Origin: Gammaproteobacteria bacterium
GTDB lineage: Bacteria; Pseudomonadota; Gammaproteobacteria; Steroidobacterales; Steroidobacteraceae
Reading direction: 5' to 3'
Length of the DNA stretch: 64,000 nucleotides
Assembly (NCBI GenBank): GCA_027452045.1
Contig: DAIDHH010000031.1
Location: 1 to 64,000, forward strand
A program made the translations under genes and the position numbers. The notes below the pieces were generated by a model. It did not search any database and had not been told where the DNA came from. It worked only from the letters and a program-made list of their open reading frames with translations. Shown in pieces: positions 7,767 to 58,094 of this stretch; position 1 is the stretch's first letter, and every line of letters begins with the position of its first letter.

Positions 7767-8636
7767 ATGAAACAGCCCTCTCTCACCCGCACCCTGCCCT
7801 CGGGCCGCAAGGTGCAGCTCCAGGGCCTGCCGCGGCGGCGCTGGCGGGATCTGTATCACGTGTTCATGACCACGAGCTGGCCGAGACTCTTTGCCCGCTT
7901 CGCCGCCTTCTTCGTGCTGAGCAATCTGCTGTTCGCCCTGGCCTACTCGCTGCAGCCGAACGGCATCACCCATCTCGATCCACCGGGGTTCTGGGGCCGG
8001 TTCTTCTTCAGCGTCGAGACCCTCGCCACCGTCGGCTATGGCGACATGCACCCGCGGACGGTGTACACGCACATCGTTGCCTCACTGGAGATCTTCACCG
8101 GCATGATGAGCCTCGGTGTGATCGCGGGCATGATGTTCGCGCGCTTCTCCAGGCCCACCGCCCGGTTCCTGTTCGCCCGGCACGCGGTCATCCGGCCCCT
8201 CGATGGCAAGCTCACGTTGGTTTTGCGCGCCGCCAACGAGCGGCAGAACGTGGTCATGGAAGCCCGCGCGCAGCTGCGTCTGATCCGCGATGAGCGAACC
8301 GTCGAAGGCCACCACCTGCGCCGGATCCACGATCTGCGCCTGCGCCGCAGCGAGCAACCCATTTTTCTGTTCGGCTGGACGCTGATGCACACCATCGATG
8401 AGACGAGTCCCCTCGCCGGTGTCTCGGCCGAATCGCTCGAGGCCTCGGACGCCTTGCTGCTGCTCACCTTGAGCGGCGTCGACGAAGCCACCAAGCAGAC
8501 GCTGATCGCGCAACAGGAGTACCCGATGTCGATGCTGCGCTGGCAGCATAAGTTCGCCGACATCCTGACGCCGGGCGAGGACGGCATCGACCGGTTCGAT
8601 TACACGAAGTTTCACGACGTCGAGCCGCTCGGCTGA
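7767..8636 (+). CDS. KirBac-type inward-rectifier potassium channel
   Basis: A 289-residue inner-membrane channel. A slide-helix region (residues 22-40) precedes outer helix 1 (about 43-62), a pore helix with the selectivity filter TVGYGD at residues 88-93, and inner helix 2 (about 103-128). A cytoplasmic immunoglobulin-like domain follows (RPLDGKLTLVLRAANERQNV, then a beta-rich segment with TLMHTIDETSPLAG). This order is diagnostic of the bacterial Kir family. A GTG at 7764 is an in-frame alternative start. No ribosome-binding site is visible and a TACACT box lies about ten bases upstream, so the transcript may be almost leaderless. Its end overlaps the convergent kinase gene by 25 bases. 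It has no evident link to sugar use. Confidence 0.88.
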   Translation: MKQPSLTRTLPSGRKVQLQGLPRRRWRDLYHVFMTTSWPRLFARFAAFFVLSNLLFALAYSLQPNGITHLDPPGFWGRFFFSVETLATVGYGDMHPRTVYTHIVASLEIFTGMMSLGVIAGMMFARFSRPTARFLFARHAVIRPLDGKLTLVLRAANERQNVVMEARAQLRLIRDERTVEGHHLRRIHDLRLRRSEQPIFLFGWTLMHTIDETSPLAGVSAESLEASDALLLLTLSGVDEATKQTLIAQQEYPMSMLRWQHKFADILTPGEDGIDRFDYTKFHDVEPLG

Positions 8637-9589
8637 GCGGGCAGTGGCGGAAACGCCAGCCCTTCGCGTGGAGCGGAGCCGCGCTGTCCGACGATGACCG
8701 CGGCAACCTGGTTCGCGTAGGCGGCAGCCTCGGCGCGTGCGCACCCTCCGATCCGCGCGGCCAGATAGCCCGCGAGATGTGAATCTCCGGCACCGGCCGT
8801 ATCGAGCGCGCGCACCGGCAGCGTGGGAACGTGCTGCCAGCGATTCGCCGCGCCCACCCAACATCCCGCCGCACCCCCCCGGATCACACACTCGCCCCGG
8901 TGAGCACCGAGGCGGCGCGCGATCGCCGCCTCGTCCGCGCAGCCCCAGAGGGCCTTCTCGTCCTCGGTCCCCGTTGCGATCACCTCAGCGAGCGCCTCGA
9001 GCGTGCCGATGCGCTCCCGGGCAAGGCTCTCGCTCTGCCAGAGACGCGCGCGGTAGTTGACGTCGAATACGATGCGGCATCGGAGGCGATGCCGCTCGAT
9101 CCATTGGCACAGATGCCGAAAGCTCGCCGCCGAGCACAGTGCGAGCGTGATCCCGGTCACCAGCAGAACATCCGGATCCCCCAGCAGCATCTCGAGCTGG
9201 CGCGGGTCGGGCGAGCGCAGGAACTCGCTCGCCGCCGATGCCGAGCGCCAGTACGAGAACCCGGGCCGGTGCCGCGGATCGAGCGGCAGTCCGTAAAGGC
9301 CCGGCTCGCCCGCGAGCGGCGGCTCGCCAAGGTTGATGCCCTCACGCCGCAGCCGCTCCCTCAGCCACTCGGAGTAGCCACTGTCCCCGAGGGCGCTCAC
9401 GAGCGAGAGCTGCGGACCGCCCGCCCCGAGTATCCGGGCGAGACACACCAGGCAGTTCGCGACGTCGCCGCCGAATGCCAGACGGATCTCGTCTTCGGCC
9501 GGCTGCAGCTCGAGCAGCGGCTCCCCGAGCGCGGCGATCCGGCCAACCCTCATCCAGCGTGCTGTCTCGCTATCGGCATCGGCGTGCAT
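8612..9589 (-). CDS. kdgK: PfkB-family sugar kinase, probable 2-keto-3-deoxygluconate kinase
   Basis: A 325-residue cytosolic ATP-dependent kinase. The N-terminus has ALGEPLLEL and the FGGDVANCLVCLARI run, both close to KdgK (GE-LLEL, GGD-N-A--LARL). RPGFSYWRSASAAS matches the KDG-binding segment of KdgK enzymes. The C-terminal ribokinase signature DTAGAGDSHLAGYL contains the catalytic aspartate. KdgK makes 2-keto-3-deoxy-6-phosphogluconate, the step after mannonate dehydratase, and a ManD gene lies at 12480-13772, which supports the call. The start at 9589 has AGAGGA eight bases upstream; ATG 9598 and 9553 are alternatives. Other PfkB sugar kinases remain possible. It is divergent from the GH67 gene and may share its operator region. 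Confidence 0.8.
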   Translation of the reverse strand: MHADADSETARWMRVGRIAALGEPLLELQPAEDEIRLAFGGDVANCLVCLARILGAGGPQLSLVSALGDSGYSEWLRERLRREGINLGEPPLAGEPGLYGLPLDPRHRPGFSYWRSASAASEFLRSPDPRQLEMLLGDPDVLLVTGITLALCSAASFRHLCQWIERHRLRCRIVFDVNYRARLWQSESLARERIGTLEALAEVIATGTEDEKALWGCADEAAIARRLGAHRGECVIRGGAAGCWVGAANRWQHVPTLPVRALDTAGAGDSHLAGYLAARIGGCARAEAAAYANQVAAVIVGQRGSAPREGLAFPPLPAQPSGSTS

Positions 9590-9706
9590 GGCGGGCATCC
9601 TCTGGCATTGCGGCCCTGCGGTTCAACTCGTTCACACTCGCGCCTCGCAACGGCGCCGCAGGGTCCGCATCGGCCCGCTGCGCGCCGCTCATTGTGATCA
9701 CTCTCG

Positions 9707-9720
9707 TGGTAACGCTATCA
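9707..9720. promoter_or_regulatory. LacI-type operator, site 3 (GH67)
   Basis: TGGTAACGCTATCA, 33 bases upstream of the GH67 start. A promoter-like TTGTGA (9692-9697), an 18-base spacer and TATCAT (9716-9721) read rightward; the -10 overlaps the operator's right arm. Confidence 0.72.
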
Positions 9721-9753
9721 TGCCGCAGCCACGCAGCAGCGCAAGGGGGCGTC

Positions 9754-12048
9754 ATGCCGAGCCATCTGCCACCACCAACCGGCGCCGGCCGCCGCGAATT
9801 CCGGGCGACGCTGCTCCTTGCCCTGGCGTTTGCCTGCGTGAACGCACCGGGTGCCCGCGCCGGCGACGGCCATCGCCTGTGGCTGCGTTATGTGCCGGTA
9901 CATGGTGTATGGCGGGCGCGCTACCGGCGCGCCGCGACGGAGCTGATCTCGCAGAACGGCGCTCCCGGGACGCGCGCGGCGCACCGACTGCGGTCCCGCG
10001 CCCCATCGGCGACCCTGCGCGCCGCGCAGTCGGAGCTGCTGCGGGGCCTTACCGGCCTCCTCGGCCGCCCACCGCGGCTCAGCCCTCGAGTCACCACGAA
10101 CGGGGCGATTCTCATCGGCACGCCCCGCTCCTCCGCCCTGATCCGCTCGCTCCCGCTCGATCTTGCGCCCACGGGAACGCAGGGCTACCTCATTCGCACA
10201 CTTCAGGTGCACGGCCACCGCACGATCGTCATCGCCGCCCGGCGCGACATCGGCGTGCTCTATGGGGCGTTCGCCTTCTTGCGCCTCATCCAGACCCGAA
10301 GACCCATAGAACACCTGGACATGGTCTCGCGCCCGAAGATCCGCCACCGGGTACTTGATTTCTGGGACAACCTCGATGGCACGGTGGAGCGCGGCTATGC
10401 GGGAGACTCGCTCTGGAAGTGGGGTGAGCTGCCGGAGTACCTCTCGCCGCGCTACACCGACTTTGCCCGCGCCTGCGCCTCGATCGGCATCAACGGCGTC
10501 GTCCTCGACAACGTCAACGCCAGTCCGGTCATTCTCGAGCCGCTATACCTCGAGAAGGTTGCCGCGCTCGCGCAAGTCCTGCGCCCCTACGGCATCCGCG
10601 TCTACCTGTCGGTCCCCTTCAGCGAGCCCATCGCCCTCGGCAAGCTCAAGAGCGCCGATCCGCTCGATCCGGCCGTGCAGGGCTGGTGGGCGCGCAAGGT
10701 GAGCGAGATCTACCGCGACATTCCGGACTTCGGCGGCTTTCTGATGAAGGCCAACTCGGAAGGCCAGCCGGGACCGTCCGATTACGGCCGCACGCAGGCC
10801 GAAGGGGCCAACCTCCTCGCCCGCGCCCTCGCCCCTCACCACGGCATCGTCATGTGGCGCACCTTCCTCTACTCGACGAGCCCGGGAGCCGAAGACCGCA
10901 TCAGGCAGGCCTACGATGTGTTCAAGCCCCTCGACGGCAAGTTCCAGGACAACGTGATCCTGCAGGTGAAGAACGGTCCGCTCGACTTCCAGCCCCGGGA
11001 GCCCTTCCACCCGCTCTTTGGCGCCATGCCGAGAACGAACCTCATGCTCGAGCTCGAGATCACCAAGGAGTATCTCGGGCACCAGACGAGCTTCACCTAC
11101 CTCGGGCCGCTCTACCAGGAGGTGCTGCGCTCGGACACCTGGGCGGCGGGCCCGGGCTCGACGGTGGCCCGGATCATCGACGGCTCGCTCTATGGGGAGC
11201 GCGAGACCGCCATCGCCGGCGTCGCCAACATCGGCTCGGATCGCAACTGGTGCGGCTCGATCTTCAACCAGGCGAACTGGTATGTGTTCGGCCGCATGGC
11301 GTGGGATCCCACGGCCTCCGCCAGAGCCATCGCGCAGGAATGGGTGCGCATGACCTTCACCAACCAGGCGGCGTTCGTGCGGCCCGTGGTGAGGATGATG
11401 ATGCGCTCGCGCGAGGCGGCGGTCGATTACATGGACCCGCTCGGGCTCGCGAGCCAGATGGCCGCGGGCACGCACTTCGGCCCCGGTCCCTGGGTGCACC
11501 CGGGCAAGGGATTTCCGTCCGAGTGGTCGAGCACCTACTACAGCCGCGCCGATGCGCAGGGGATCGGATTCGATCGCACGGCGACCGGGAGCGACGCCGT
11601 TGCCCAGTACTCCCCGCACGTCGCGGCGGAATTTGCCAGCCTCGCCCACTGCCCGACGGACTTGCTCCTCTGGTTCCACCACCTGCCCTGGAACTACCGC
11701 ATGCGCTCGGGCCGGACACTCTGGGACTCCCTGGTGAGCCACTATGACCGCGGCGTCACGGCGGTGAAGCGCATGCGCACGACCTGGAGCCGCCTCGCGC
11801 GGTACGTCGATCCTCAACGCTATCGGCTCACGGCGGACTTTCTCACCATACAGGTGAGAGATGCCGAGTGGTGGCGCGATGCGAGCATCGCCTACTTCCG
11901 CTCGATCTCGCACCGGCCCCTGCCACCGGGAGCGGCCCCGCCACCGGAGCCGCTGAAGACCTACGAGGCGTTCTGCATCCCGTACGTGGAGGGCACTCCG
12001 GGCACAGGTCCCGCCTGCCCGCCCGCCGATATCCCGGTCCCTCGGTGA
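9754..12048 (+). CDS. GH67 alpha-glucuronidase
   Basis: A 764-residue exported enzyme that removes (4-O-methyl)glucuronic acid from the non-reducing end of glucuronoxylo-oligosaccharides. The ATG at 9754 follows AAGGGGGCGTC and opens a signal peptide ending near AGARAG (residues 25-32); the longer open frame upstream is ignored because it runs through the operator. The N-terminal GH67 alpha/beta domain, the barrel and the helical C-terminal domain are all present. The three catalytic carboxylates of the family can be placed: glutamate in MKANSEGQPGP, aspartate in VKNGPLDFQPREP, and glutamate in LELEITKEYLGH. Length is usual for GH67. It fits the ExuT, ManD and KdgK genes around it. No xylanase is in the window. 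Confidence 0.93.
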   Translation: MPSHLPPPTGAGRREFRATLLLALAFACVNAPGARAGDGHRLWLRYVPVHGVWRARYRRAATELISQNGAPGTRAAHRLRSRAPSATLRAAQSELLRGLTGLLGRPPRLSPRVTTNGAILIGTPRSSALIRSLPLDLAPTGTQGYLIRTLQVHGHRTIVIAARRDIGVLYGAFAFLRLIQTRRPIEHLDMVSRPKIRHRVLDFWDNLDGTVERGYAGDSLWKWGELPEYLSPRYTDFARACASIGINGVVLDNVNASPVILEPLYLEKVAALAQVLRPYGIRVYLSVPFSEPIALGKLKSADPLDPAVQGWWARKVSEIYRDIPDFGGFLMKANSEGQPGPSDYGRTQAEGANLLARALAPHHGIVMWRTFLYSTSPGAEDRIRQAYDVFKPLDGKFQDNVILQVKNGPLDFQPREPFHPLFGAMPRTNLMLELEITKEYLGHQTSFTYLGPLYQEVLRSDTWAAGPGSTVARIIDGSLYGERETAIAGVANIGSDRNWCGSIFNQANWYVFGRMAWDPTASARAIAQEWVRMTFTNQAAFVRPVVRMMMRSREAAVDYMDPLGLASQMAAGTHFGPGPWVHPGKGFPSEWSSTYYSRADAQGIGFDRTATGSDAVAQYSPHVAAEFASLAHCPTDLLLWFHHLPWNYRMRSGRTLWDSLVSHYDRGVTAVKRMRTTWSRLARYVDPQRYRLTADFLTIQVRDAEWWRDASIAYFRSISHRPLPPGAAPPPEPLKTYEAFCIPYVEGTPGTGPACPPADIPVPR

Positions 12049-12479: not shown

Positions 12480-13772
12480 TCACCAATCCGACATCGTGCC
12501 GTCCTCGAGGCGGGCGATCGGCAGTTGCCTTGGTGTATAGGGGAAGCGCGCGGCGAGCTTCTCGTCGATGCCGACGCCATGACCCGGACTCTCACCGCAG
12601 TGCAGCCGCCCGTCGCGGAAGGTGTAATCGTTGGGGAAGACTTCGAGCGTCTGCGCAGTGTGGTGCATGTATTCCTGGATGCCGAAGTTCGGCACCCACG
12701 TGTCGAAGTGCAGCGCCGCCCCCAGGGTCACGGGCGAAAGGTCGGTGGCGCCATGGAAGCCCGTTCGCACCTGATGCAGCGCGGCGAGATCGGCGATGCG
12801 GCGCACGTGCGTGATGCCGCCCGCGTGCACGAGGGTCGTGCGGATGAAGTCTATGAGCTGGCCCTCGATGAGGCGCCTGCAGTCGTAGATCGAGTTGAAC
12901 ACCTCGCCCACCGCGAGCGCGGTCACCGAGTGTCGCCGGATGAGCTCGAAGCCTTCGGGATTGTCCGCCGGCGTCGCATCTTCCAGCCAGAAGAGCCGGT
13001 GAGGCTCGAGATCGCGGGCGAGTCGCGCCGCCTCGATCGGCCTCAGGCGATGATGGGCATCGTGCAGGAGCTCGAGCTGCGTGCCGTGATCGGCGCGCAG
13101 CCGCTCGAAGAGCTTGGGAACGATCTCGAGGTAGGCCGGCGTCGACCAAACCGTCTCGGCCGGCAGTTCGCTTTCGGCCGGCTCGTACGCGTTCTTCTCG
13201 CGGGTGACGCCGTACGGCTTCTTCAGCCCCGGCACCCCGCATTGCGCCCGCACCGCCCGATATCCCATCGACACGAACCGCGCCACCTCGGCGCTCGTCT
13301 CCTCGACATCCCGCCCACTCGCATGGCCGTATACCAGCACGCCCTCGCGCGAGCGGCCGCCGAGCAGCCGATAGAGCGGCAGCCCCGCCATCTTGCCGAG
13401 GATGTCCCACAGCGCCACATCGACCGCGGCGATCGCGGTCATGGTGACCGGACCCCGCCGCCAGTACGCGCCCCGATAGAGGAACTGCCAGGTGTCCTCG
13501 ATACGCCCCGCGTCGCGCCCGATCAGGTTCGGGATCACATGGTGCTCGAGGTAGGCGGCCACGGCGAGCTCGCGACCATTGAGCGTCGCGTCCCCGAGAC
13601 CAAACACTCCGGAGCGCGTCTCGATCTTGAGTGTCACGAAGTTGCGCCCGGGACAGGTGACGATGACGCGCGCGGCGACGATCTCCCTATCCCGCGCAGC
13701 GCCGCTGAGATCCGCGCTCCCGAGCGGTGGCCCGCCGGGAGACTCCTGTGGGCCGCTCGAAACGTTGCTCAT
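12480..13772 (-). CDS. manD: D-mannonate dehydratase, enolase superfamily (ManD/RspA type)
   Basis: A 430-residue cytosolic enzyme converting D-mannonate to 2-keto-3-deoxygluconate in hexuronate breakdown. ManD hallmarks are present: [17 protein letters not shown] at the N-terminal capping domain, [21 protein letters not shown], and [19 protein letters not shown]. The barrel has [20 protein letters not shown] and [10 protein letters not shown], which supply the metal ligands of the mandelate-racemase subgroup. [12 protein letters not shown] and the C-terminal RLEDGT follow. ATG 13772 has GGAG seven bases upstream; ATG 13793 is also possible. It lies 40 bases after the ExuT-type transporter in the same operon. 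Some RspA homologues have low activity on several acid sugars, so strict substrate identity is inferred. Confidence 0.87.
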
Positions 13773-13812
13773 ACACCCACTCCGCTCATACATCCACTCC
13801 CCGAAGGTTGTC

Positions 13813-15084
13813 TCACCCGACACCCGAGCCCCGAACCGCCGTCCACCGCGGCGCCAGCACGTGCATCAGGGCGAGCGCCAGAAGATACATGCCTCCGGCG
13901 ATCCCAAACAGCACGGTATAGCTGCCGGTCGCCTGCAGAACGAACCCCACCGCCGTCGCCACCAGGGCCCCGGACACCGCTCCGGCGAATCCGCCGAATC
14001 CGACCACCGAGGCCACCGCCGCGCTCGGATAGAGGTCCGAGGCGGCGGTGAAGAGGTTGGCCGACCAGCCCTGATGAGCCGCCGCCGCAAGACCGATCAG
14101 CGCCACCGCGCCCCAAAGATGCGCCATCCAGGGCGCAAAGACGATTGGCACCACGGCGAGGGCGCAGACGAGCATGGCGCCCTTGCGCGCCGCGTTGAGG
14201 CTCCAGCCGAGCCTCATGAGCCGCCCGGCGAGCCAGCCGCCGGCGATGCTGCCGGCGTCGGCCATCACGTACACCGCCACGAGCGGCGCGCCGAGTTCGG
14301 TGAGGTCGAGCCCATAGCGGTGACTGAAGAACTTCGGCAGCCAGAAGAGAAGGAACCACCACACCGGGTCGGTGAGAAACTTGCCGGTCACGAATGCCCA
14401 GGCCTGGCGGTGATGCAGCAGGTGCCTCCAGGGAAGGCTGCCGGCCGAGCCCGTGTCCCCGTCACTGCGAATGTATTGGAGCTCGAGCTGCGACAGGCGC
14501 GGGTGGCGCTGCGGCGCGCGGTACACGGTGAGCCACGTCGCAAGCCATAACAGGCTGAGCACGCTCGTCACGAGAAAGCCCGAGCGCAGCCCCCACAGCT
14601 CGGCCACCCACGGTACGGCAAGCGGCGCGAGCACCGCACCCACGTTGGATCCGGCGTTGAACAGACCCGTGGCAAAGGCCCGCTCGCGGCGCGGAAACCA
14701 CTCAGAGACGGTCTTTACGGCCGCGGGCAAATTGCCCGACTCGCCAAGCCCCAGCATGAAACGCGCGGCGGCGAACGCGAGCACCGTGCGTGCGAGCGCA
14801 TGGCTTGCCGCCGCGAGCGCCCACACGGAAATCGCAAGCGCATAGCCCACGCGCGTGCCGAGCCTGTCGATGAGCGGACCGGAAAACATGAGTCCGATGG
14901 CATAGGCGAGCTGGAAGGCCGCGACGATGTAGCCGTAGTCGAGCTGCGTCCAGCCGAGCGCGTGGCCCAATGTGGGCGCGAGGACCCCGAGCACCTGGCG
15001 GTCGAAGTAGTTGAGCGTCGTCGCCCAGAAGAGCAGCGCGCAGACGCCCCAGCGGACCCGCCCTGCCCGCTCGGTGCTCGACAC
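13813..15084 (-). CDS. MFS hexuronate transporter (ExuT-like, anion:cation symporter family)
   Basis: A 423-residue inner-membrane carrier with about twelve helices. The N-terminal [29 protein letters not shown] is typical of the ExuT/GudP branch, as are the [11 protein letters not shown] and [17 protein letters not shown] segments. GTG at 15084 is the start read here. Given the upstream deacetylase and downstream mannonate dehydratase, glucuronate or an aldobiouronate released from glucuronoxylan is the likely cargo; this substrate is inferred. It lies 27 bases after the SGNH-CE7 gene and 40 bases before manD, so it is cotranscribed. Confidence 0.87.
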
Positions 15085-15111: not shown

Positions 15112-17619
15112 TCACTCCCGCTTCGACTGCGGCCGGGTGAGCGCCTCGTTCGGCACGAACCGTCCCCCGTGCGCGAGCGTGGCGAGGACCGCCTCGGAAC
15201 GCTCGAGCCAGGCGTCCTGCTTGTCCGGGGTGATGTTGTTGTGATCGGAGTCGATCAAGGGCACCGCCTCCTTCGGCCCCGGTATCTCGTTGAGTGCCGT
15301 CCAGATGCCCGCCGGCGGCGCCGTCGTATCGATGAATCCCATCGCGGCGAGGACCGCGGCGGTGATGTGCGGCGCAAAGTTCACGGGGTCGAAATAGCGC
15401 GCGGTCGCGAGCAGCTTCGCATCGGTCGTGTCGTAGTACGGGTACCCGGGATTGCGGCCGTGCGCCAGGCCATTCATGTCGGTGCCGGCGGGCTCATCGA
15501 CCAGCACGGCGGTCACCTTTCCGGGGTTGAGTCCCGCGGTGACGAGGCTCTGCTGACCGCCCATGCTGGTGCCGAGGAACACCACCGTCTTGCCGTCCCA
15601 AGCGGGGCTGCGGCGGATGTACTGCAGCGCCCGGGTGTCACGCAGGTACATGTCGAGGAAGTATGAGGTCCGGCGGCTGTGATCGCCGATCGCCTGATAG
15701 TCCTGCGGCACGCCGCTGCCCTCACTCGGGGCGATGTCGTGCGAGTCGACATCGAGGGTGAGCCAGCCCTGCGCGGCGCGATTGGTGGCCCAGGAGGTAT
15801 CGAGCGGATACACCCCCGCCCATTGATAGAGAATGAGCGCCGGGAACCTGCGGCCTTTGGCGGGCATCGCGAGGTAACCGCGTACGTGAGAGCCGACGCT
15901 GTCGAGTCTCACCCTGTAGAGCTTCACGCCCGGTTGCGCGGTTGGCATCGGCGTCAACACCGGGTCCATCGGCACCTTGCCGAGCCTCGCGAGCTGGCGT
16001 TTCCAGAAGGACCAGAAATCCGCAGGCGCAGGCTCCGCAGGCCTGAGCAATGTCGGCGCCACGGCGGCACCGAACGTTGCGACGCGCTGCGCATGGTAGT
16101 CAACCGCGACGTAGACCATCGCAGGCTCATCTAGCCGCGTCGTGATCCTCACCGGTCCCGAGGACAGCGTGAATCGGCCGGTCTTGCGGACATCGAGATC
16201 GTTGGTCTTGATCGTGTAGCGGAACGAACCCGCGGGCGGGCTCTGCCCCGGCGCGAGGCTCACCGTCCAGCCGACCTTCTGACCCAGAGCGTAAATGCCG
16301 TCGGCATGAAACGGAACGCCGGTGAGCTTCGGGGCGGCGGCCCGCGCGGCCGCTGCGCTCGGGGCGAAGAATGCGAGGGGAACGGCATCGGCCATCGCGC
16401 GATAGCCGGCCGGGTTCGGATGCAGGTGGTCGCCGGAATCGTACGCGGGGCGCAGGCGATGCGGGTCCGCCGGATCGCGCACGGCCGCATCGAAATCGGC
16501 CACCGCGTCGAAATGCCCCGGCGTGCGTATCCAGGCGTTGATCTTCTCGCGGTCGGCTTCCGTTGCGGCGGATGGGTGATAGTAGGTCGAGCCGGTGAAC
16601 GGGGTGATCGTCCCGCCCATCACGCGTATACCCTCGGCGTGCGCCCGGAGAATGATCTGTCGGTAGGCGCCGATGATGTGGCGCACGAGTGCCGCGTGCT
16701 GCGCGGGCGGGATCCTTCCGTGCATGGTCGCGGTGCCGAGATCGTTGACCCCTTCGAGCACGATGAGATAACGCACGCCGCTCTGCGCGAGCACATCGCC
16801 ATCGAAGCGCGCCAGCGCATCGGGACCGAGCCCGTAGCGCAGCAGCCGGTTGCCGCCGGTGCCCACATTGACCACGCCGAGGTCGCGGGTCGCCGGCGAG
16901 GACTGCAGGCGTCTCGCGAGGTCATCGGGCCAGCGGGTATCGCTGTTGTCGGGCGTGGCGTGTCCGTCGGTGATCGAATCCCCTAGCGCGACGATGGCCG
17001 CGCCCTGGCGGCGCTCGAGCACATCGACCCCGGAGAGAAAGAACCAGTGCGCAAATCGCCTGGCCCCGGGCAGGCGGGCGGCCGCGACATGATCACCGGG
17101 GGCGAGGAAGGAGGTCTCACGGGCACCGGGATGGCTGGTCTCACCCTCGGGCGGCGCCTGCAGATGCATCGTGATCGCCAGATTCGACAGCGGCGGCGCA
17201 TCGAAAGCGACGGGGTCCGAGTAATAGACCGCCCCCGCCGGAATGATGACGCCCCGACGGCCATTGAACGTGAGCACCGTGTTGGTCGCGGGGTCGATGG
17301 TGCCGCTCGCGAGCGAGACCGGGCGGGCGATCTCGACCGAGGTGATGTAGAGGGCGCGGGTGCCGAAGGCATTCGACAGGCGCACCCGCAGCCGCCTTGC
17401 GCCCAGGGACAGATGCACGATCTGACGGAGCGTCGCGTTGGCGAACTTCGCGGCCGGCAGCGCGTTCGCCGGCTCCGGAATCTGCTGAGAGGAGGCCCAC
17501 GTGCCCACCCAATGCGCCACGGGCGATCCCCGCGCGCGCACCCCGGACCCGGCCATGCCCGCCGCGCAGGCGAGTAACGCCCACGCCAACACCGTGCGGA
17601 TCGGCGGCCGGGCGCTCAT
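15112..17619 (-). CDS. Two-domain secreted esterase: SGNH/GDSL hydrolase fused to CE7 acetyl xylan esterase
   Basis: An 835-residue exported protein with a signal peptide (about residues 1-30). Residues 35-200 form a beta-rich leader domain. Residues about 205-420 are an SGNH hydrolase: block I GDSITDG with Ser216, GVND near 294-297, and DHLHPN with Asp398 and His401. Residues about 430-520 look like a beta linker. Residues about 525-820 are a CE7 (AXE1) acetyl esterase with GTSMGGQQS (Ser686), GFIDTTAPP (Asp765) and SDHNN (His794), a complete triad. Both halves therefore appear active and could remove acetyl groups from xylan or its oligosaccharides. It overlaps the upstream unknown gene by four bases (ATGA), indicating translational coupling. 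Confidence 0.85.
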   Translation of the reverse strand: MSARPPIRTVLAWALLACAAGMAGSGVRARGSPVAHWVGTWASSQQIPEPANALPAAKFANATLRQIVHLSLGARRLRVRLSNAFGTRALYITSVEIARPVSLASGTIDPATNTVLTFNGRRGVIIPAGAVYYSDPVAFDAPPLSNLAITMHLQAPPEGETSHPGARETSFLAPGDHVAAARLPGARRFAHWFFLSGVDVLERRQGAAIVALGDSITDGHATPDNSDTRWPDDLARRLQSSPATRDLGVVNVGTGGNRLLRYGLGPDALARFDGDVLAQSGVRYLIVLEGVNDLGTATMHGRIPPAQHAALVRHIIGAYRQIILRAHAEGIRVMGGTITPFTGSTYYHPSAATEADREKINAWIRTPGHFDAVADFDAAVRDPADPHRLRPAYDSGDHLHPNPAGYRAMADAVPLAFFAPSAAAARAAAPKLTGVPFHADGIYALGQKVGWTVSLAPGQSPPAGSFRYTIKTNDLDVRKTGRFTLSSGPVRITTRLDEPAMVYVAVDYHAQRVATFGAAVAPTLLRPAEPAPADFWSFWKRQLARLGKVPMDPVLTPMPTAQPGVKLYRVRLDSVGSHVRGYLAMPAKGRRFPALILYQWAGVYPLDTSWATNRAAQGWLTLDVDSHDIAPSEGSGVPQDYQAIGDHSRRTSYFLDMYLRDTRALQYIRRSPAWDGKTVVFLGTSMGGQQSLVTAGLNPGKVTAVLVDEPAGTDMNGLAHGRNPGYPYYDTTDAKLLATARYFDPVNFAPHITAAVLAAMGFIDTTAPPAGIWTALNEIPGPKEAVPLIDSDHNNITPDKQDAWLERSEAVLATLAHGGRFVPNEALTRPQSKRE

Positions 17620-19520
17620 GGCCGCTCCCGCAAGGCCACGAGACTATGCGGCTCCACCCGCAGCTCGTAGCCGTACTGCCGCGGCGCGGCTCTTGCGCCC
17701 CCGCCGGGGGGCGACCCGACCGAGGCCAGCGGCTCACCCTCGAGGACCGTGCCGCTCGAGAGGTCCTCGAGATGGGCCGACCCGTCGATGAGGCGGACCG
17801 CGACGGGCTGGTCGAGGTAGGACTCCACCACCCGAGCGCCATTGGCGTAGTCGAAGAGGCTCACCTGCGCGGGCCCCTCGAGCCTCGGCAGGCCCGGCGT
17901 GAGCAAGCGGCGCAGCGCATCGAGCACCGGCGGCGGGAGTGAGGCGAGATCGTTCTGCTCCTCCGGCACATCGAGCACGTACAGCTCGCCTTTCCCGTAA
18001 TGATCCATCAGGAGCAGCGGCACGCCGCCCGCATCGTCCAGACCTCTCAGCACGGCCCAATCCTCGTTCGTGTAGAAATGGATCAAGGGAAAGAGGATCG
18101 GCCGGCTCTTGCCGAGCACCGTGCCGGCGCCAAAGCCGAATCCCTCCACGTAACGGGTGGGAGCCACGATGCGGTGCGTGAGGCGCATATCGGTGACTCG
18201 ATCGAAGCCGCGGTGTTGCAGCACACGCAACAGGCCCGAGGTGATGATCACGCGATCGCCGGCGCGCAGATGCGACTCGATTTCCGTCACGATCCGCGGA
18301 TCGTGCGCCGCCGCTTGCGTGAGGAGCACCGAGTGGGCGTTCGGCCACCGCGGATACATCTCGACCGGAATGCCGATCATGCCGAGCATCTCGGGCAGGA
18401 AGTCCTCGCCGCTCGAATCGAGCGGCCGATACACCGCAAGCCCGCGAGGCTCCCCGAGGCCTCCTGCGATCCGATCGACCTGACGGAGCGAGTACGCTAC
18501 CGCATCGGCGAGGCGGGGATGGCGGGCCGCGGGAGCCCCGGGCGTTGCGCAGCACTCCAGCACCATGCGCCGGTAGTTGAATGTGGTGGGCAGGTGCTGC
18601 CAGGGGGCGCGGTTCTTCGGATCGGCGATCCTCAAGAGGTCGGTGTACTCGAACAGGTTGATCGCGGGCGCCTTGGCGAGAATCGTGTCCCAGAGCTGCT
18701 CGGCGTAGCGGTCGAGATCGTGCATGGCGATCGGGTCCACCCAGCCGCCGCCGTTGCGCCCGGGCGCGATGTTCTCGAAATACCTGAAGATCTCGTAACT
18801 CTCGTACGGCAGCAGTTCCTGATCGGTGGTGGGCGCATAGCGCGTCTCATCGCCCGTCCAGATCTCGGGAAAGATCTTCGGCTCATGCACGAGATCGAAC
18901 CCCATGCCCTGGAACGAGGGGTAGAAGTTCGGGAACTTGATGATGATGCGAACCTTGGGGTTGGCGGCCCTGGCGGGGCCGAGGATCAGATCCCGCGAGA
19001 CCTCGTCCATCGTTCGCATGCGATACTCGGCCCAGCTGCGCCCGCCCTTGGCCGCGATGTCCGCATCGCTCTTGGTATTGAAGAAATAAAGATCATCGAG
19101 CACGAACTCATTGAAGTGACGCGCCGTGAGCGCCGACATGCGCCGCGCGAGCGCGCGGTCGGCCGGCAACGCGTAATCGAGGGTGTTGAACTGCCCGCCG
19201 CGGCCCGGACCGAGCATGGCCATGCCCCCGGCCACCGCGACGCCGCGCGACTCGAAGAAATGCTTGACGCGATCGAGCTGCGCGCCATCGGCGCTCACTC
19301 CGGCGCGGTAGCTCTCGATGAACACCTGGTCGACGTGCAGTGCCGAGCCGATCTCCTTCCAGCTCGAGCGCATCCAGGCCGGATCGCGCGCCATGCGCTT
19401 CACCACCCGCACGGGTATGTAGACCGTGACCTTGAAGTTCTGGTAGGACCGCGGCGCGGTCCAGCCCGTGGCGCTCACCAGCAACAGAGCGAGCGCTCCC
19501 AGCCAATGTCCAGCTTTCAA
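17616..19520 (-). CDS. Secreted protein of unknown family, glycosidase-like (paralogue 1)
   Basis: A 634-residue exported protein that I cannot assign to a named family. TTG 19520 is chosen because GGGGG lies just upstream and it opens a clean signal peptide (residues 1-22); the ATG at 19631 would place the operator inside the coding region. Residues about 25-330 look like an alpha/beta barrel: KVTVYIPVRVV, QVFIESYRAGV, EFVLDDLYFFNT (Asp142, Asp143), RIIIKFPNFY and EIWTGDETR (Glu225). Residues about 365-520 resemble the glutamine-amidotransferase-like domain that follows the barrel in GH42 beta-galactosidases (MLGMIGIPVEMYPRWP, VIITSGLL, GELYVLDVPEE). A beta-rich C-terminus ends it. It is first in a glucuronoxylan operon and has a paralogue at 45130-47061. 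Confidence 0.75.
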   Translation of the reverse strand: MKAGHWLGALALLLVSATGWTAPRSYQNFKVTVYIPVRVVKRMARDPAWMRSSWKEIGSALHVDQVFIESYRAGVSADGAQLDRVKHFFESRGVAVAGGMAMLGPGRGGQFNTLDYALPADRALARRMSALTARHFNEFVLDDLYFFNTKSDADIAAKGGRSWAEYRMRTMDEVSRDLILGPARAANPKVRIIIKFPNFYPSFQGMGFDLVHEPKIFPEIWTGDETRYAPTTDQELLPYESYEIFRYFENIAPGRNGGGWVDPIAMHDLDRYAEQLWDTILAKAPAINLFEYTDLLRIADPKNRAPWQHLPTTFNYRRMVLECCATPGAPAARHPRLADAVAYSLRQVDRIAGGLGEPRGLAVYRPLDSSGEDFLPEMLGMIGIPVEMYPRWPNAHSVLLTQAAAHDPRIVTEIESHLRAGDRVIITSGLLRVLQHRGFDRVTDMRLTHRIVAPTRYVEGFGFGAGTVLGKSRPILFPLIHFYTNEDWAVLRGLDDAGGVPLLLMDHYGKGELYVLDVPEEQNDLASLPPPVLDALRRLLTPGLPRLEGPAQVSLFDYANGARVVESYLDQPVAVRLIDGSAHLEDLSSGTVLEGEPLASVGSPPGGGARAAPRQYGYELRVEPHSLVALRERP

Positions 19521-19586
19521 CCTGGCCCCCTTCTGCACGATCGGCCGCGATGGCGCCTGGAGCCGGAGCGCAGCCCGTGATTTTTC

Positions 19587-19615
19587 ATGATAGCGCTCAC
19601 ATTCCGGCTTGGCAA
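19587..19615 (-). promoter_or_regulatory. Putative promoter of the glucuronoxylan operon
   Basis: On the minus strand TTGCCA (19615-19610), a 17-base spacer and TATCAT (19592-19587) make a good sigma-70 match. The -10 and spacer overlap operator site 4. The start point would be near 19580, leaving a 5' leader of about 60 bases before the TTG start. Confidence 0.55.
19588..19601. promoter_or_regulatory. LacI-type operator, site 4 (glucuronoxylan operon)
   Basis: TGATAGCGCTCACA, with one arm slightly degenerate. It overlaps the promoter of the leftward operon that starts at 19520. Confidence 0.62.
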
Positions 19616-19675
19616 TTTCGAATCGAGCCAAGCGCTACGCAGCGATGGCCCTATACCGGCCGACTGATTTGGTTA

Positions 19676-19689: not shown

Positions 19690-19717
19690 CATGACATCGA
19701 CGGCAAGGGGGGAGATC

Positions 19718-22084
19718 GTGTCGCTTTTCCGCATATCACGCATGGGCGCGCCCTGCGCGCTCGCCTTGGCCGCGCTCCTCGCTCCGGGGCTCGCCCCTCG
19801 CGCCGCGAGCGCCACCACACAGCCGCTCTACAAGAACCCGAACGCCCCGATCGACGCCCGTGTCGATGACCTGCTCGCAAGGATGACCCTCGAGGAGAAG
19901 ATCGCCCAGATCAGCGGCATCTGGCAGCGCAAGCCCGGGATCGAGGATGCGCGCGGGAACTTCGACCCCGCCAAGGCGGCGCGACTCTTTCCCGAAGGCA
20001 TCGGGCAGGTGGCCCGTCCGGAGGACATCAACGGCCAGCCCGGCGGGTTCCGCAGCCTTCGCCGCACCGTCGAACTGGTCAATGCCATTCAGCGCTACGA
20101 CATCAAAGACACCCGTCTCGGGATTCCCGCGCTGTTTCACAGCGAGGGGCTGCATGGCTACATGGCCGTGGGTGCCACCAGCTTTCCGCAGGCGATCGCA
20201 CTGGCAAGCTCATGGGATCCATCGCTGGTCAGTCGCGTATTTGCCGTCGTTGCCCGCGAGGCGCGGGCTCGGGGAGTGCAATTGCTGCTCACGCCAGTCA
20301 TCAACCTCGGGCGCGACCCTCGATGGGGGCGCATCGAGGAGACCTTCGGGGAGGACCCCTATCTGGTCAGCCGGATGGGGGTCGCCGAGGTGCGAGGCCT
20401 GCAGGGAAACACGCTTCCCCTCGGTCCCGGGCGGGTGTTCGCGACTCTCAAGCACTTCGCCGGATACGGTGTCCCGGAGGCGGGCACGAACGTCGGGCCT
20501 GCCGAGATCACGCGCCGTACCTTGCGCCAGATGTACTTCGAGCCCTACCAGGCGGCCATCGACCATGCGCACGCCCAGATCGTCATGGCCTCCTACAACG
20601 AGATCGGCGGGATCCCCTCGCATGCCAATCGCTGGCTGCTCACCGACGTGCTGCGCAAGGAGTGGGGCTTCAAGGGGCTGGTGGTGAGCGACTACGACGG
20701 CATCGAGCAACTGATGACGCTGCACCACGTCGTCGCCAACCTGACCGATGCCGCGGTTCGCTCGCTCCACGCCGGGGTCGATGTCGACTACCCCGACGGC
20801 GAGGCGTTCTCCCACCTTCCCCAGGCGCTCGCCGCCGGCAAGGTGACGATGCCGCAGATCGACTCGGCGGTGCGGGGCGTACTGCGCCTGAAGTTCGAGG
20901 CGGGCCTGTTCGATCATCCGTATGTGAGCGCCCGCTACGCCGAGAAGATCACCGCTGACGCACAGGCGCGCGCACTCGCGCTCGAGGCGGCGCAGAACGC
21001 CATCGTGCTGCTGAAGAACGACGGCACCCTGCCCCTGGACGTGCAGCGCATCAAGACCCTGGCGGTCATCGGCCCCAATGCGAGGCCGGTGCGGCTCGGA
21101 GGGTACTCCGGCATCCCGACTGATCCGGTCGGCATCCTCGAGGGCATCCGCCGTTATGTCGGCAAGCGCGTGCGCGTCGTCTATGCCAAGGGCGTGCACC
21201 TGGTTGCCCCTGGCGACAACTACTATACCGACCACGTTTCGCTCGCCCCGGCGGCGGAAAATCGCGCCCTCATCCAACAGGCGACACGCGTGGCCCGGCA
21301 CGCGGATGCGATCGTGCTCGTTCTCGGCACGCGTGGCGCACTGTGCCGCGAGGGATGGGCGCAGACGCATCTCGGCGACCGCGACAGCCTGAGGCTCGTC
21401 GCGCAGCAGAATGAGCTCGCGCGCGCGATCTTCGCCCTCGGCAAGCCCGTGGTCACCGTGCTGATCAACGGGTGTCCGGTCACCGTCAATCGCATCCTCG
21501 GCCGGACCAACGCCCTGATCGAGGGCTGGTACCTCGGTCAGGAAGGCGGCACGGCGATGGCGGACGTTCTATTCGGCAAGACCGATCCGGGCGGCAAGCT
21601 CCCGCTCACCATCCCGCGCTCGGTGGGCCAGGTGCCCTACAACTACGACGAGAAGCCAAGCTCGCATCGCGGCTACCTGTTTGCCCGCAACAGCCCGCTG
21701 TTCCCCTTCGGCTACGGGCTCTCCTACACCACCTTCGATATCGGCCGGCCGGTGCTCTCGGCGAGCCGTATCCCGGCTCACGGCACGCAGACCGTGACGG
21801 TGAACGTGCGCAATACGGGCAAGGTCGCCGGGAGCGAGGTCGTGCAGCTCTACCTGCACGAGCGGGTCACTTCGGTGACCGAGGCGGTGAAGGCGCTGAA
21901 GGGCTTCAAGCGAGTGTGGCTGGCCCCCGGGGCCTCGACGCGGGTGACCTTCAAGCTCGGCTGGAAGGACTTCGCGATCTGGAACGAGGACATGCGCCAC
22001 GTGGTCGAGCCGGGCACCTTCCGCGTGATGGTCGGACCGGACTCGGTGAGCCTGAAGTCCGCGACCTTCCAGGTCACATCCTGA
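19718..22084 (+). CDS. GH3 beta-xylosidase (xylan 1,4-beta-xylosidase type)
   Basis: A 788-residue exported exo-enzyme that should release xylose from xylo-oligosaccharides. GTG 19718 follows a run of six G (GGGGGGAGATC) and opens a signal peptide; the upstream ATG at 19691 abuts the operator and is less likely. Features of the bacterial GH3 xylosidase branch are present: MTLEEKIAQ, LFHSEGLHGYMA, NLGRDPRWGRIEETFGEDPYL, KHFAGYG, and nucleophile aspartate in GLVVSDYDGIEQL. NAIVLLKNDGTLPL opens the second GH3 domain, and a C-terminal fibronectin-III-like domain starts near residue 650. Alpha-L-arabinofuranosidase side activity is known in this branch. It is divergent from the glucuronoxylan operon. 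Confidence 0.9.
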   Translation: MSLFRISRMGAPCALALAALLAPGLAPRAASATTQPLYKNPNAPIDARVDDLLARMTLEEKIAQISGIWQRKPGIEDARGNFDPAKAARLFPEGIGQVARPEDINGQPGGFRSLRRTVELVNAIQRYDIKDTRLGIPALFHSEGLHGYMAVGATSFPQAIALASSWDPSLVSRVFAVVAREARARGVQLLLTPVINLGRDPRWGRIEETFGEDPYLVSRMGVAEVRGLQGNTLPLGPGRVFATLKHFAGYGVPEAGTNVGPAEITRRTLRQMYFEPYQAAIDHAHAQIVMASYNEIGGIPSHANRWLLTDVLRKEWGFKGLVVSDYDGIEQLMTLHHVVANLTDAAVRSLHAGVDVDYPDGEAFSHLPQALAAGKVTMPQIDSAVRGVLRLKFEAGLFDHPYVSARYAEKITADAQARALALEAAQNAIVLLKNDGTLPLDVQRIKTLAVIGPNARPVRLGGYSGIPTDPVGILEGIRRYVGKRVRVVYAKGVHLVAPGDNYYTDHVSLAPAAENRALIQQATRVARHADAIVLVLGTRGALCREGWAQTHLGDRDSLRLVAQQNELARAIFALGKPVVTVLINGCPVTVNRILGRTNALIEGWYLGQEGGTAMADVLFGKTDPGGKLPLTIPRSVGQVPYNYDEKPSSHRGYLFARNSPLFPFGYGLSYTTFDIGRPVLSASRIPAHGTQTVTVNVRNTGKVAGSEVVQLYLHERVTSVTEAVKALKGFKRVWLAPGASTRVTFKLGWKDFAIWNEDMRHVVEPGTFRVMVGPDSVSLKSATFQVTS

Positions 22085-28629: not shown

Positions 28630-30177
28630 TCAGACAGGCTGCAAGCCGTGCTCGCGGATGCTTTGCAACAGCTCGCGATTCTTCGGCAGCCGGGCGAGCA
28701 TCTGTTGCGTGACCTGATCCTTCTCCCGCAGCAGCCGCGATGCGAGGGGCGCGCTCTGGGCGGTGTCCTCGAGGCTGACCTCGGTGCGAAACCCCATGCC
28801 ATAGAGCACGTACTGGTAACTCGCCGCCGGAAAGACCTCCTCCAGGCGATCGAACTCGTCGAAGAACCACGGTGACTGGTATTGCCACAGGGTCAGAAGC
28901 TCCTGCAGCCGCTGTGGAACGGTCGCCGGATCGACGTTATCGCGCCAGAACGCCGTGTCGGTGCGCCGCGTGAGCACGTAGTGGAGCTTCAGGAAATCGA
29001 CGATCCGTCCCCAGCGGTAGTGGGTCACCTCGTTGAAGCGCCGGGCGATCAGATCCATCACCTCGCGACACGCGGGCATCTGCTCCGCCAGCAGCTTAGC
29101 TGAGAGCTCCACCAGGACGATCGCCGAGGACTCGAGCGGCTCGAGAAAGCCGGCGGCGAGTCCGACGGCGACGCAGTTGCCCTTCCAGAAGGTCTGGCGA
29201 TGGCCCGAACGGATCGGGATCTTGCGCACAGGCAGTTCCTTGTGCCGCTCGCCGACGTAACGCGCGAGCGTCTCGCGGGCCGCCTCCTCGCTCGAGTGGC
29301 GACTCGAGTACACGTAACCGATGCCGCGCCGCGAAGGCAGCGCGATATCCCAGATCCACCCCGCCTCCTGAGCGGTCGAGAGGGTCTGAGAGGCCATCGG
29401 GGCATCGGATGTGTCATAGGGAACCTGCGTCGCGAGGGCCGTGTCGCAAAATAGAATGTCGCTCAGGTCCTTGAAGCCCACCCCGAGGGTCTCACCGAGC
29501 AGCAGCGCCGAGAAGCCGCTGCAATCGATGAAGAGGTCTCCCGAGAGTTCCCCGGCCTGGGCGGTGCGCAGGCTGGTGATGTCGCCGTTCTCGCCTTGAT
29601 TCACCGCGATCACATCCGCCAGGACGTGGCGGACCCCGAGCCTTGCCGCGCAGTGCCGGGCGAGGAACGGGGCGAATTTACCCGCATCGAGGTGATAGGC
29701 ATAGTTCGCGAGCCCGCGGTACTCGGCGTTGACGATGGTCTTGGGCGCCAGGCCCTCATCGCACAGCTGGCCCTGCGGGGTGACGAAGTCGCAGAAGCTC
29801 CTCCCGCCGCGCTCCTTGAGCCAATGCGGCACGAGATTGAGCACCGAGAAGCCCTGGGGGGCCATCAGCGGGTGGTAGTAGGCGTCATCGGGCTCACCGG
29901 TCGTCCACCCGGCGAACCGGCCTCCCTGCTTGAACGCGGCGTCACACTGCCGGAACAGCTCCGTCTCCGACACCCCCATCTTTTCCAAAGACGAGCGCAT
30001 CGTCGGCCACGTCCCCTCCCCGACGCCGATGATCCGGATGTCCGGAGACTCGACCAGCGTCACGGAGAAGCCGCCCGCCTTCATCCGAGCTTGATGGCGG
30101 GCGGCGATGATCCCCGCGGTGAGCCATCCGGCGGTTCCTCCGCCGACGATGACCACCGCCTTTACGGGCTGATTCAC
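28630..30177 (-). CDS. Flavin-dependent tryptophan-halogenase family protein (1)
   Basis: A 515-residue flavoprotein. The FAD-binding motif IVGGGTAGWLTA is at residues about 8-20, the family lysine sits in AAFKQGGRF near residue 89, and the WxWxI region reads GWIWDIALP near residue 275. GLAAGFLEPLESSAI near residue 340 is conserved in the family. Classical members chlorinate tryptophan or phenols, but this subgroup is found with TonB receptors and has no established substrate. It begins with GTG one base after the TonB receptor stop and lacks its own ribosome-binding site, so translation is probably coupled. Operon order: TonB receptor, halogenase, SapC, cupin. Confidence 0.88.
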   Translation of the reverse strand: MNQPVKAVVIVGGGTAGWLTAGIIAARHQARMKAGGFSVTLVESPDIRIIGVGEGTWPTMRSSLEKMGVSETELFRQCDAAFKQGGRFAGWTTGEPDDAYYHPLMAPQGFSVLNLVPHWLKERGGRSFCDFVTPQGQLCDEGLAPKTIVNAEYRGLANYAYHLDAGKFAPFLARHCAARLGVRHVLADVIAVNQGENGDITSLRTAQAGELSGDLFIDCSGFSALLLGETLGVGFKDLSDILFCDTALATQVPYDTSDAPMASQTLSTAQEAGWIWDIALPSRRGIGYVYSSRHSSEEAARETLARYVGERHKELPVRKIPIRSGHRQTFWKGNCVAVGLAAGFLEPLESSAIVLVELSAKLLAEQMPACREVMDLIARRFNEVTHYRWGRIVDFLKLHYVLTRRTDTAFWRDNVDPATVPQRLQELLTLWQYQSPWFFDEFDRLEEVFPAASYQYVLYGMGFRTEVSLEDTAQSAPLASRLLREKDQVTQQMLARLPKNRELLQSIREHGLQPV

Positions 30178-30178
30178 G

Positions 30179-33100
30179 TCACATCTGTGCGCGCAGACCC
30201 ACGGTGAATGTGCGACCGTAATCTATCACGTCGAGGATCTGATTGTCGAAGCGTCCATGGGTAACGTACTGTCCATCGTTCAGGTTCAGTGCCTCGAAGA
30301 ACACGCTCAGGTGCTTGTTGATGTTGTAACTGGTGCTGAAGTCCACTTCCGTCACGGCATCGAGGTACGTCGGCTCCGTCCCGGTGGCCGAATTGTTCTG
30401 CTGCTGGCCGAACTGCATGAACTGCGAAGCCTGCCAGTTCACCGCCACACGCGCCTGGAAGCCGTGCCGCTGGTAGAAGCCGATGAAGTTCACCGAATCC
30501 CCGACTCCCGGCAGCGCGAACTGGTTCGTGTAGACGTACGGGTTGAATGTCTTGTTCGTATGGATGACGTTGCCGTTCACCATGTAACCGAAGCCGAGCG
30601 GCAGCATCTGCTGCCAGGTTACCTCCACCCCGTCCACGTTGGCCGAAGGCCCGTTCACATACGCGGTTTCGGTGAAGTTGGCGAGATTCCCAGTCGTAGG
30701 ATCGATTACTCCGTTGACGTGGAAGTTATTGAAGGTCTCGAGCTCCGGGAACTGGCTGACGTGCTTGAAGTACCCGTCGACCGCCAGGTAATCGTTCGCC
30801 GCGTAGTACCACTCCGCGCCCAGGTGGAAGTTGTTCGACAGGTACGGCAGCAGATCCGGGTTCTGCGCCGTCGCGGTGAGCGCGCCCACGCGTCCGTTCT
30901 CGGTGGTCGTCGGGCTGATGTCGCCCAGGGGCGGCTGGGTGAGGGTGCGCGAGGCGTCGAATCGCAGCTTCAGGTTATGCATGACCATGAGGTTCAGGTC
31001 GAGGCTCGGCAGGAAGTAATTGTAGGCGTTGCTGTTGGAGATCGGCTGCATCGGACCGTAGTTGAACACGAACGCGGTATGGTCCGAGGACTCGACCGTG
31101 AGCGACTGCAGCTGCTCCCCGAGTCCGACCGATTCGAGCGTGGTGCGCTGGTCCCTCAGGGCGATGCGCGCGTTCAACGGCATGTCGCCGAGATCGAACC
31201 GGTGCTCGAGGCTAAGGAAGGGCGACCATGTCCTTTGCTGCGTGTAGGCGTATGAGCCCGGGTTGAACGCGAGCGGTACCGCGCCTCCGGTGTACGGGGG
31301 ATACGCGGAATTGATCGTGTTCGGATTGGCCCCGGATGGCCCGAGGCCGATCAGGTAGTTGAGCACCGCATACGGGTTGTACTCGAGGATCGCGGGCAGA
31401 TTCCCGTTGCCCGACCATCCGGGAATGAAGCTGGACGTGCTGATGCCGCCTGCGAACAGCGACGGCGGCAGCGCCTGACCGTGCCCGGTGCCGTTTCCGG
31501 AGAGCGGACCGTACCCGGCCCAGAGCTGCCAGGCGTTGTTCTGGAAGGTATCGGACTCGGTGGCGTTGCGCGAGTCCTGGACGAACTGCGCGCCGAAGTT
31601 GACCCGGGTGCTGCCCCTGTGCCAGGTCGCATCGAGCTTCACCTGGTCGATGATGTCGCTCGTGGTCGGCTGCTGGATGGGCAGCACGTGCGAGCCGAGG
31701 ATGTACGGATTCAGGCCGAGGATGTTCGACTTGTTGTCGTTCGGACCGAAATTCGAGGGGTACGGCAGGGTGTTGCCGCCCGGGACCACGATGCCGCCGA
31801 TGTAGGCATTCGTGCTGCCGCCCGTCGAGGGTCCGTAGCCCACGTCCATGTCGATGTTGCTCAGCTGCCCGCCCGGATTGAGATCCGAGGTGGATTGGTC
31901 GGCATCGAGCTCGGTCGTCCAGGCATCGCCCACGTCCCAGAGCACATTCAGCCCGAGCTCGTTGTTCTTGATGTAGCTGCCGTTGTAATCGGCGTCGAAA
32001 TCGGTGGGCGCTGGACCGTAGTCGAAGTTGGTCACGGTGCCGTTCGGGTCGGTCTGCACGTTGTACAGCTGGGTGCCGTTGAACCACGTGCTGTACTCGG
32101 ACCGGTAGGAGAGCAGCCGATCATCGGAGTAATCATCGTTCAGGGTGACCATCACCGCATCCGTCGGATGCCATTGGATGACGGCCCGGCCGGTCTTGCG
32201 GCGATCGTCCGTGCGGTCGTTGTAGAGCGCGTAGTCCTGGATGAACCAGCTCGGCTTGGTGTTTGGCGGCGTGACGGTGGAGTCTCCACTGGCGTCGACG
32301 TTGGCGCCGAGGGGCAGCGGTTGCCCGGAGGCATTGACGCAGGTCGGGCCGCCGGCCATCTGGCAGGAGTTGAGAGTCGTCCCTTCCCAGCCGGCGAGAC
32401 TCAGGTGGTGTTCGTCGGTCTTCTGGTCGCTGTACTCCCCATCGAGAAGGATGCCGAACTTGCGGTGGTCGAAGGTATCGCTCCACAGGGCGCCGAACGC
32501 GGGGGTCGGCTGACCGTCATTCGGGGAGTCGCTCTCGGAGACCATGCCCTTCAGGTGCATGCCCGGGTTCTCGAACGGGGTCGGCAGCTTGATGTTGACC
32601 GTGCCGCCGATGTTGCCGGAAGACAGGCTGAAGTCCGGGGTCTTGTGCACGTCGATCTCGCCGACGAAGTCCGCCGCCAGCGAGGCGTAGTCGAACTGCC
32701 GGTCATTGGTCGCGGCGGAGGCCATCGGCCGTCCATCGACCAGGGTTTCGACGAAATCCCCGCCGAAGCCATCAATGGTCACCTGGGAGGCCTGGCCCGT
32801 GGAGATCGGCGCGCCGCCGGTGCCCGAGACCGCCGAGCGGTTCACGGTGATGCCCGGAACACGCTGCAGGGCGGCTCCAAGGCTCGCGTCCGGGAAGTGG
32901 CCGATGCTCTCGGCCGAGATCGCATCGACGACACCGATCGCGTTCTTCTTGATCTGCAGCGATCGCATGAGCGATCCGCGGATACCGGTGACCACGATCT
33001 CCTGAAGCGCCGAGGCGCTCGAGCTGGCGGCGCCCGGTGCGGGACCTGCGGCCTGAGCGATCAGCCCGGCGCCGCCGGCGGGGAGCCCGGCGCTCGAGGC

Positions 33101-33355: not shown

Positions 33356-33494
33356 TGAGACCCCCTCACGTAAAAACCAGGATGTTGCAATAGAACAACA
33401 GACGCGCCCCAAGGCGTGGCGCGGATTCAATAATGGCTCAGGATCGTCCGGTACCCCTTCTTGTTTGTGCCCGCCGATCGCTCCAGATTGTCTC

Positions 33495-57909: not shown

Positions 57910-58006
57910 GTTCTGTACCCCCCTCGAGTGCAGATTGAATTCGGTAGATTCGGTTTCGGCCGTCGCTCGTCCTGGCGCCGGCTTCCATGCTAGGTTAACG
58001 CCGTCA

Positions 58007-58046: not shown

Positions 58047-58094
58047 GAATTATTGAATATCCACAACCCCAGGGGCGAGCCATTTAGGAGGGGT

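Follow-up and report, generated by a model that had tools for sequence, protein, structure and literature searches.

What does the long open reading frame at 15112-17619 on the reverse strand of this 64,000-nucleotide window (the whole stretch of DNA analysed) encode, how did it arise, and on what substrate would its product act? A sequence-only reading had proposed that an SGNH esterase and a CE7 acetyl xylan esterase are joined here in one polypeptide, and the coordinates and strand it gave are exact. Our preferred answer, to which we assign a probability of about two in three, is that the gene is a genuine, recently derived fusion of two co-operonic acetylxylan esterases, with a complementary mechanism of action.

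Two esterase domains in one reading frame

The gene comprises a single uninterrupted frame of 835 amino acids, with an ATG start and a TGA stop. Frame length alone is no proof of coding, because long antisense ORFs occur in the GC-rich DNA of the window; both halves of the product are homologous to solved structures, however (PbeAcXE, 7tog, E = 4.5e-102 for the SGNH half; B. subtilis 1l7a, E = 1.4e-20 for the CE7 half), and the 835-residue frame is therefore real coding sequence. Pfam profiles match both halves within this one frame, each well above its cut-off: Lipase_GDSL_2 covers residues 211-408 (95.8 bits, E = 5.6e-27), and AXE1 covers residues 526-801 (80.2 bits, against a gathering cut-off of 21).

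From the N-terminus, and with all coordinates on the reverse strand, the predicted FjoAcXE-like SGNH acetylesterase and CE7/AXE1-like acetylesterase are laid out as follows: a hydrophobic export signal, assigned by inspection (residues about 1-30; 17530-17619); a CBM-like beta domain as in PbeAcXE, placed by alignment and a residue table (about 35-206; 17002-17517); the SGNH catalytic domain, placed by Pfam and structure-sequence alignment (about 207-418; 16366-17001); a 48-nt fusion junction, APSAAAARAAAPKLTG, delimited by alignment (419-434; 16318-16365); an N-terminal domain that accompanies the CE7 subfamily, likewise from alignment (435-510; 16090-16317); and the CE7/AXE1-like alpha/beta hydrolase, from Pfam and alignment (511-835; 15115-16089). 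Both catalytic triads named by the sequence-only reading are present, but all six of its residue numbers are one too high. The correct residues are S215 (codon 16975-16977), D397 (16429-16431) and H400 (16420-16422) in the SGNH half, and S685 within GTSMG (15565-15567), D764 (15328-15330) and H793 (15241-15243) in the CE7 half. Two esterase catalytic domains thus lie in one polypeptide that, from inspection of its signal, is exported, which is the arrangement that marks a multicatalytic carbohydrate esterase.

The N-terminus lacks a strict lipobox and has a possible weak one, LLAC, at residues 15-18; four of the standalone SGNH orthologues checked (G012, G029, G025 and G006) carry strict lipoboxes. 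An internal start yielding a separate CE7 enzyme is possible in principle, but its product would have no export signal. A single-sequence AlphaFold model of the fusion (pLDDT 34) is unusable for interdomain geometry.

Relationships of the two halves

Residues 35-418 align with residues 9-384 of 7tog, covering the CBM-like and SGNH domains of PbeAcXE at full length, and the second aligned structure, 7toj, also belongs to the FjoAcXE group and comes from the same homologue study. In addition to the triad, the oxyanion residues G255 and N292 are present. Among the positions whose roles in contacting MeGlcA are described in PMC9105624, N26 and R139 (the carboxylate clamp) are conserved as N52 and R167, R193 is replaced by H220 and the variable R25 by A51. 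The nucleophile motif is GDSI where GNSI is the proposed signature of the FjoAcXE group, and all same-genus SGNH orthologues likewise have GDSI or GDSL. As judged from these alignments, the SGNH half resembles an FjoAcXE-type enzyme but lacks one proposed membership feature, GNSI. Enzymes of the FjoAcXE/PbeAcXE group deacetylate 3-O-acetyl xylose that carries 2-O-MeGlcA, and with them the product of a GH115 alpha-glucuronidase increases about tenfold (PMC9105624). Because the SGNH half has this named closest group, the earlier suggestion of acetyl removal at distinct positions can be stated more precisely.

The CE7 half aligns to CE7 structures of B. subtilis and T. maritima, although the closest solved CE7, 1l7a, is only a distant one (76.8 bits). 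The GxSxG motif (GTSMG, S685), the Asp (D764) and the His (H793) are conserved. RGQ and HE, which are further CE7 signature motifs beside GxSxG (PMC9606172), are both absent: the site aligned with RGQ reads SHD, and H793 is followed by N (HN or HM in relatives). Both motifs are also missing from the same-genus copies, from Gemmatirosa and from G333, a genome of another genus of the same family, and from the whole CE7-like subfamily, to which the N-terminal domain at residues 435-510 is also common. On these motifs the half is best named CE7-like. That two unrelated esterase folds with intact triads share one exported polypeptide encoded within a glucuronoxylan operon, as the sequence-only reading had it, holds up, whereas its residue numbering does not and the CE7 assignment falls short of the RGQ and HE signatures. 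The N-terminal domain of the fusion is without an insertion of about 45 residues found in same-genus CE7s; a deletion in the fusion was rejected as the cause, as G333 and Gemmatirosa also lack this segment, which places an insertion in the same-genus relatives.

Probable origin of the fusion from neighbouring genes

We surveyed the arrangement of these genes in 58 same-genus genomes, 18 of which, counting that of the window, hold a CE7-like gene. It is encoded as a gene of its own in 15 of the 18; of the other three, G003 has a remnant, G008 a broken fragment and the window the fusion. In 11 of those 15 genomes CE7 has a gene for a CE15-like glucuronoyl esterase upstream of it, and this gene is preceded by an SGNH gene, intact or cut by a contig end, in eight of the 11 (the CE15-like gene between SGNH and CE7 is at L026 8396-9961, with equivalents in L025, L027, L030-L034, L127, L139 and L140). 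In G034 (L033 8040-8699) the middle of the SGNH gene is deleted, joining residues 8-90 to 388-419, and CE15 and CE7 are intact.

CE7 directly follows SGNH in four same-genus genomes; in each of them the two genes are in different frames and overlap by ATGA, the CE7 ATG sharing bases with the SGNH stop. Separate, translationally coupled genes are likely to be the ancestral state, to judge by these arrangements. From the last conserved SGNH residue to the first conserved CE7 residue the spacer measures 179-206 nt in the four genomes, versus 48 nt in frame at the window junction, from which the stop, the start and most of the CE7 signal-peptide region are missing; the junction itself is probably a remnant of the C-region of the CE7 signal peptide.

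These comparisons also bear on whether the two genes were joined by an assembly or sequencing error. The fusion comes from one metagenome-assembled genome (MAG), 75% complete and in 198 contigs, and its exact form was found nowhere else, as an artefact would predict. The sequence-only reading had itself named a sequencing frameshift joining two genes as what would overturn it, and this fails on inspection: passing from separate genes to the fusion takes a net loss of 131-158 nt together with a frame change, and no one-base error would produce it. A chimera of distant loci was also rejected. G003, the sister of the window in the SGNH tree, has the order X2-SGNH-(CE7 remnant)-MFS-ManD, which is that of the window operon. 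We therefore hold an artefact to be very improbable. In G003 the SGNH stop overlaps an ATG that opens a signal-peptide-like stretch, and CE7 is kept only from residue about 718; this in-frame C-terminal remnant (L022 8043-8387) is open into the frame of the downstream MFS transporter gene.

Short of a read-level check, the junction and gene-order comparisons indicate that the fusion is derived and real, and that, found in one genome, it descends from two adjacent but separate genes and is not an established architecture.

Selective constraint on both halves

A real fusion could still be a decaying or neutral intermediate, in which CE7 activity is being lost and the fused copy contributes nothing or is on its way out. 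The esterase pair is in flux across the genus, as the internally deleted SGNH gene of G034 illustrates, and G003 retains no more of CE7 than a C-terminal remnant while L021 has none beside SGNH, from which we conclude that CE7 was lost in the sister lineage; because of these two cases, CE7 activity may be dispensable there. The fused gene itself gives little sign of decay. It contains no stops, keeps both triads, and matches 153 of 160 family-invariant positions in the SGNH half and 104 of 111 in the CE7 half. Compared pairwise with same-genus copies, the SGNH half gives dN/dS values of 0.16-0.24 and the CE7 half values of 0.18-0.30, in which much or most of the divergence predates the fusion. 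The branch leading to the fusion is not long in either the SGNH or the CE7 tree (0.24 in the latter, against 0.34 for G034). Low dN/dS, retention of invariant positions and branches that are not elongated argue against decay of either half, an explanation we consider unlikely, and by these measures both halves are under purifying selection.

A glucuronoxylan locus and a proposed division of labour

The fused gene is the second of an operon, X2-fusion-MFS-ManD, whose genes overlap or are closely spaced. Upstream lies X2 (17616-19631, reverse strand; 671 aa), a gene of no known family whose stop codon overlaps the fusion's ATG; downstream follow an MFS transporter of galactonate/uronate type (13813-15084, reverse strand) and, overlapping it, the mannonate dehydratase ManD (12480-13823, reverse strand; 689.8 bits, cut-off 550). 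A GH67 alpha-glucuronidase is encoded at 9475-12048 on the forward strand (its true start may be further downstream), a PfkB kinase whose best match is KDG kinase at 8612-9598 on the reverse strand (172.5 bits, below the cut-off of 400), and a beta-xylosidase-like GH3, divergent from the operon, at 19691-22084 on the forward strand; the vicinity holds two GH3 genes in all and a XylE-like transporter. The glucuronoxylan context proposed earlier is thereby borne out, and gene content indicates that the neighbourhood is a glucuronoxylan utilisation locus. GH10 and CE15 searches of the window's own genome returned no match, which is weak evidence given the incompleteness of that genome.

X2 has a paralogue in the window at 45130-47061 on the reverse strand (46% identical), and neither protein has a Pfam match; the 17616-19631 copy also had no match in NCBIfam, among PDB sequences or in plasmids. 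The family is present in 17 of 60 relatives, all of the same genus, and both window copies lie within glycan loci. A low-confidence model has alternating beta/alpha units over residues 69-232, which would fit a portion of a barrel. The proteins are a candidate orphan glycoside-hydrolase family.

Further right, the window holds TonB receptors, tryptophan-halogenase-like genes, two GH31 genes, an alpha-L-fucosidase, an alpha-galactosidase and GH127, which suggests an adjoining locus for xyloglucan-like glycans. The two tryptophan-halogenase-family genes (28630-30177 and 53208-54710) each adjoin a large TonB-dependent receptor (30179-33430 and 54778-58083, respectively) within glycan loci, and two large ORFs without a Pfam match, at 58050-60584 (844 aa) and 62151-63881 (576 aa), adjoin the second receptor.

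The xyloglucan- and pectin-type enzymes of this region would be compatible with both halves being active on another acetylated glycan, such as xyloglucan, mannan or pectin, as would the divergence of the SGNH half from PbeAcXE at R193 and R25, and CE7 enzymes can be broad-spectrum, mannan included (PMC13276840). We nevertheless think such a substrate rather unlikely: GH67, ManD and GH3 are the immediate neighbours, same-genus orthologues often have the CE15 gene, a marker of glucuronoxylan and lignin esters, between them, and structures of CE20, the xyloglucan acetylesterase family, were not recognised among the 20 PDB matches of the SGNH half at E <= 0.001.

In the proposed sequence of events, the two genes were at first separate and translationally coupled, the CE7 ATG being overlapped by the SGNH stop. 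A deletion would have taken out this stop together with the start codon and most of the signal peptide of CE7 while restoring the frame, such that both enzymes would now be exported together on the SGNH signal. The SGNH half, with a positively charged pocket at the interface of the CBM-like and SGNH domains, would take the 3-O-acetyl off xylose carrying 2-O-MeGlcA, and the CE7-like half would take other 2-O- and 3-O-acetyls off the same xylo-oligosaccharide. The alpha-glucuronidase (GH67) and beta-xylosidase (GH3) encoded nearby would thereby receive a cleared substrate, with the uronate passing to ManD and the kinase. Going by the orthologue lipoboxes against the weak LLAC, fusion may also relocate CE7 to where its SGNH partner sits. 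We infer the substrates, the positional split, the benefit of tethering and the localisation from homology and context; complementary deacetylation of xylo-oligosaccharides, ahead of GH67 and GH3, is the best-supported function. Weighing against this explanation are its source in one MAG, the absence of RGQ and HE, the change of R193 to His and that of GNSI to GDSI.

Distribution and comparison with known systems

The sequence-only reading had recommended searching other genomes for the domain combination. No second such fusion was found in about 826 Pseudomonadota genomes, the large genome searches having covered Pseudomonadota and scored a few best candidates per genome, nor in plasmids, viral contigs or a genome-contig scan; viral contigs held no relatives. 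A different combination occurs in G333 (L035 1144-3498), where a CE7-like domain of the same subfamily precedes, within one frame, an SGNH domain of PAF-acetylhydrolase type that keeps the GDS, G, N and DxxH residues; its order and SGNH type indicate that this is an independent fusion in reverse order. A bolder reading, in which an FjoAcXE-type enzyme acting on the otherwise resistant acetyl next to MeGlcA and a divergent CE7 without RGQ or HE acting on the remainder form a single-chain complete glucuronoxylan deacetylase, and in which fusion was selected twice, independently, in one family, G333 included, can be put forward only tentatively.

The SGNH half resembles the FjoAcXE/PbeAcXE/CspAcXE group (PMC5863359, PMC9105624), to which neither paper gives a CE family, in its full-length CBM-like plus SGNH architecture, triad, xylan locus, DxLHP motif, GLGP loop and MeGlcA-binding N26 and R139, and differs in GDSI for GNSI, H220 for R193, A51 for R25 and its fusion to a second esterase. 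The other half shares the AXE1 profile, alpha/beta-hydrolase homology, GxSxG, Asp and His with CE7/AXE1 acetylxylan esterases-cephalosporin C deacetylases (1L7A, 1VLQ, 6AGQ), but has SHD and HN for RGQ and HE and an extra N-terminal domain; as a subfamily without these motifs, it tests the need for both.

BcCE7 and BcCE25 of Bacteroides cellulosilyticus (PMC13276840) likewise pair a CE7 carrying an unannotated N-terminal fold with an SGNH esterase. They act in complement in trans, and both are needed for complete deacetylation of beta-mannan; unlike the fusion, they are two separate proteins with beta-mannan as substrate, and CE25 is a different family of SGNH enzymes. In agreement with the sequence-only reading, no characterised single-chain CE7 plus SGNH enzyme appeared in the literature searched, and for PDB entries 9kr0 and 9kqz we found no literature. 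If active, the enzyme would be the first fusion in that literature to join a CE7-type enzyme to an SGNH acetylesterase tolerant of MeGlcA, and would offer a natural means of fully deacetylating hardwood glucuronoxylan with one enzyme before alpha-glucuronidase acts. The benefit of tethering accessory esterases has been called unclear (PMC8040265), and the genus offers a natural series in which it could be tested: separate genes, CE15 between them, fused, CE7 lost and SGNH broken.

Known multicatalytic carbohydrate esterases (CE6-CE1, CE1-CE1 and CE6-CE1-CE1; PMC7110780, PMC8040265, PMC12247016) are likewise secreted proteins encoded in xylan loci, each with at least two esterase domains, but belong to other families, combine acetyl with feruloyl esterase activity where the fusion has two acetylesterases, and recur in many genomes. 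By its domain content, the fused gene is best seen as a variant within this known class, encoding a putative bifunctional acetylxylan esterase.
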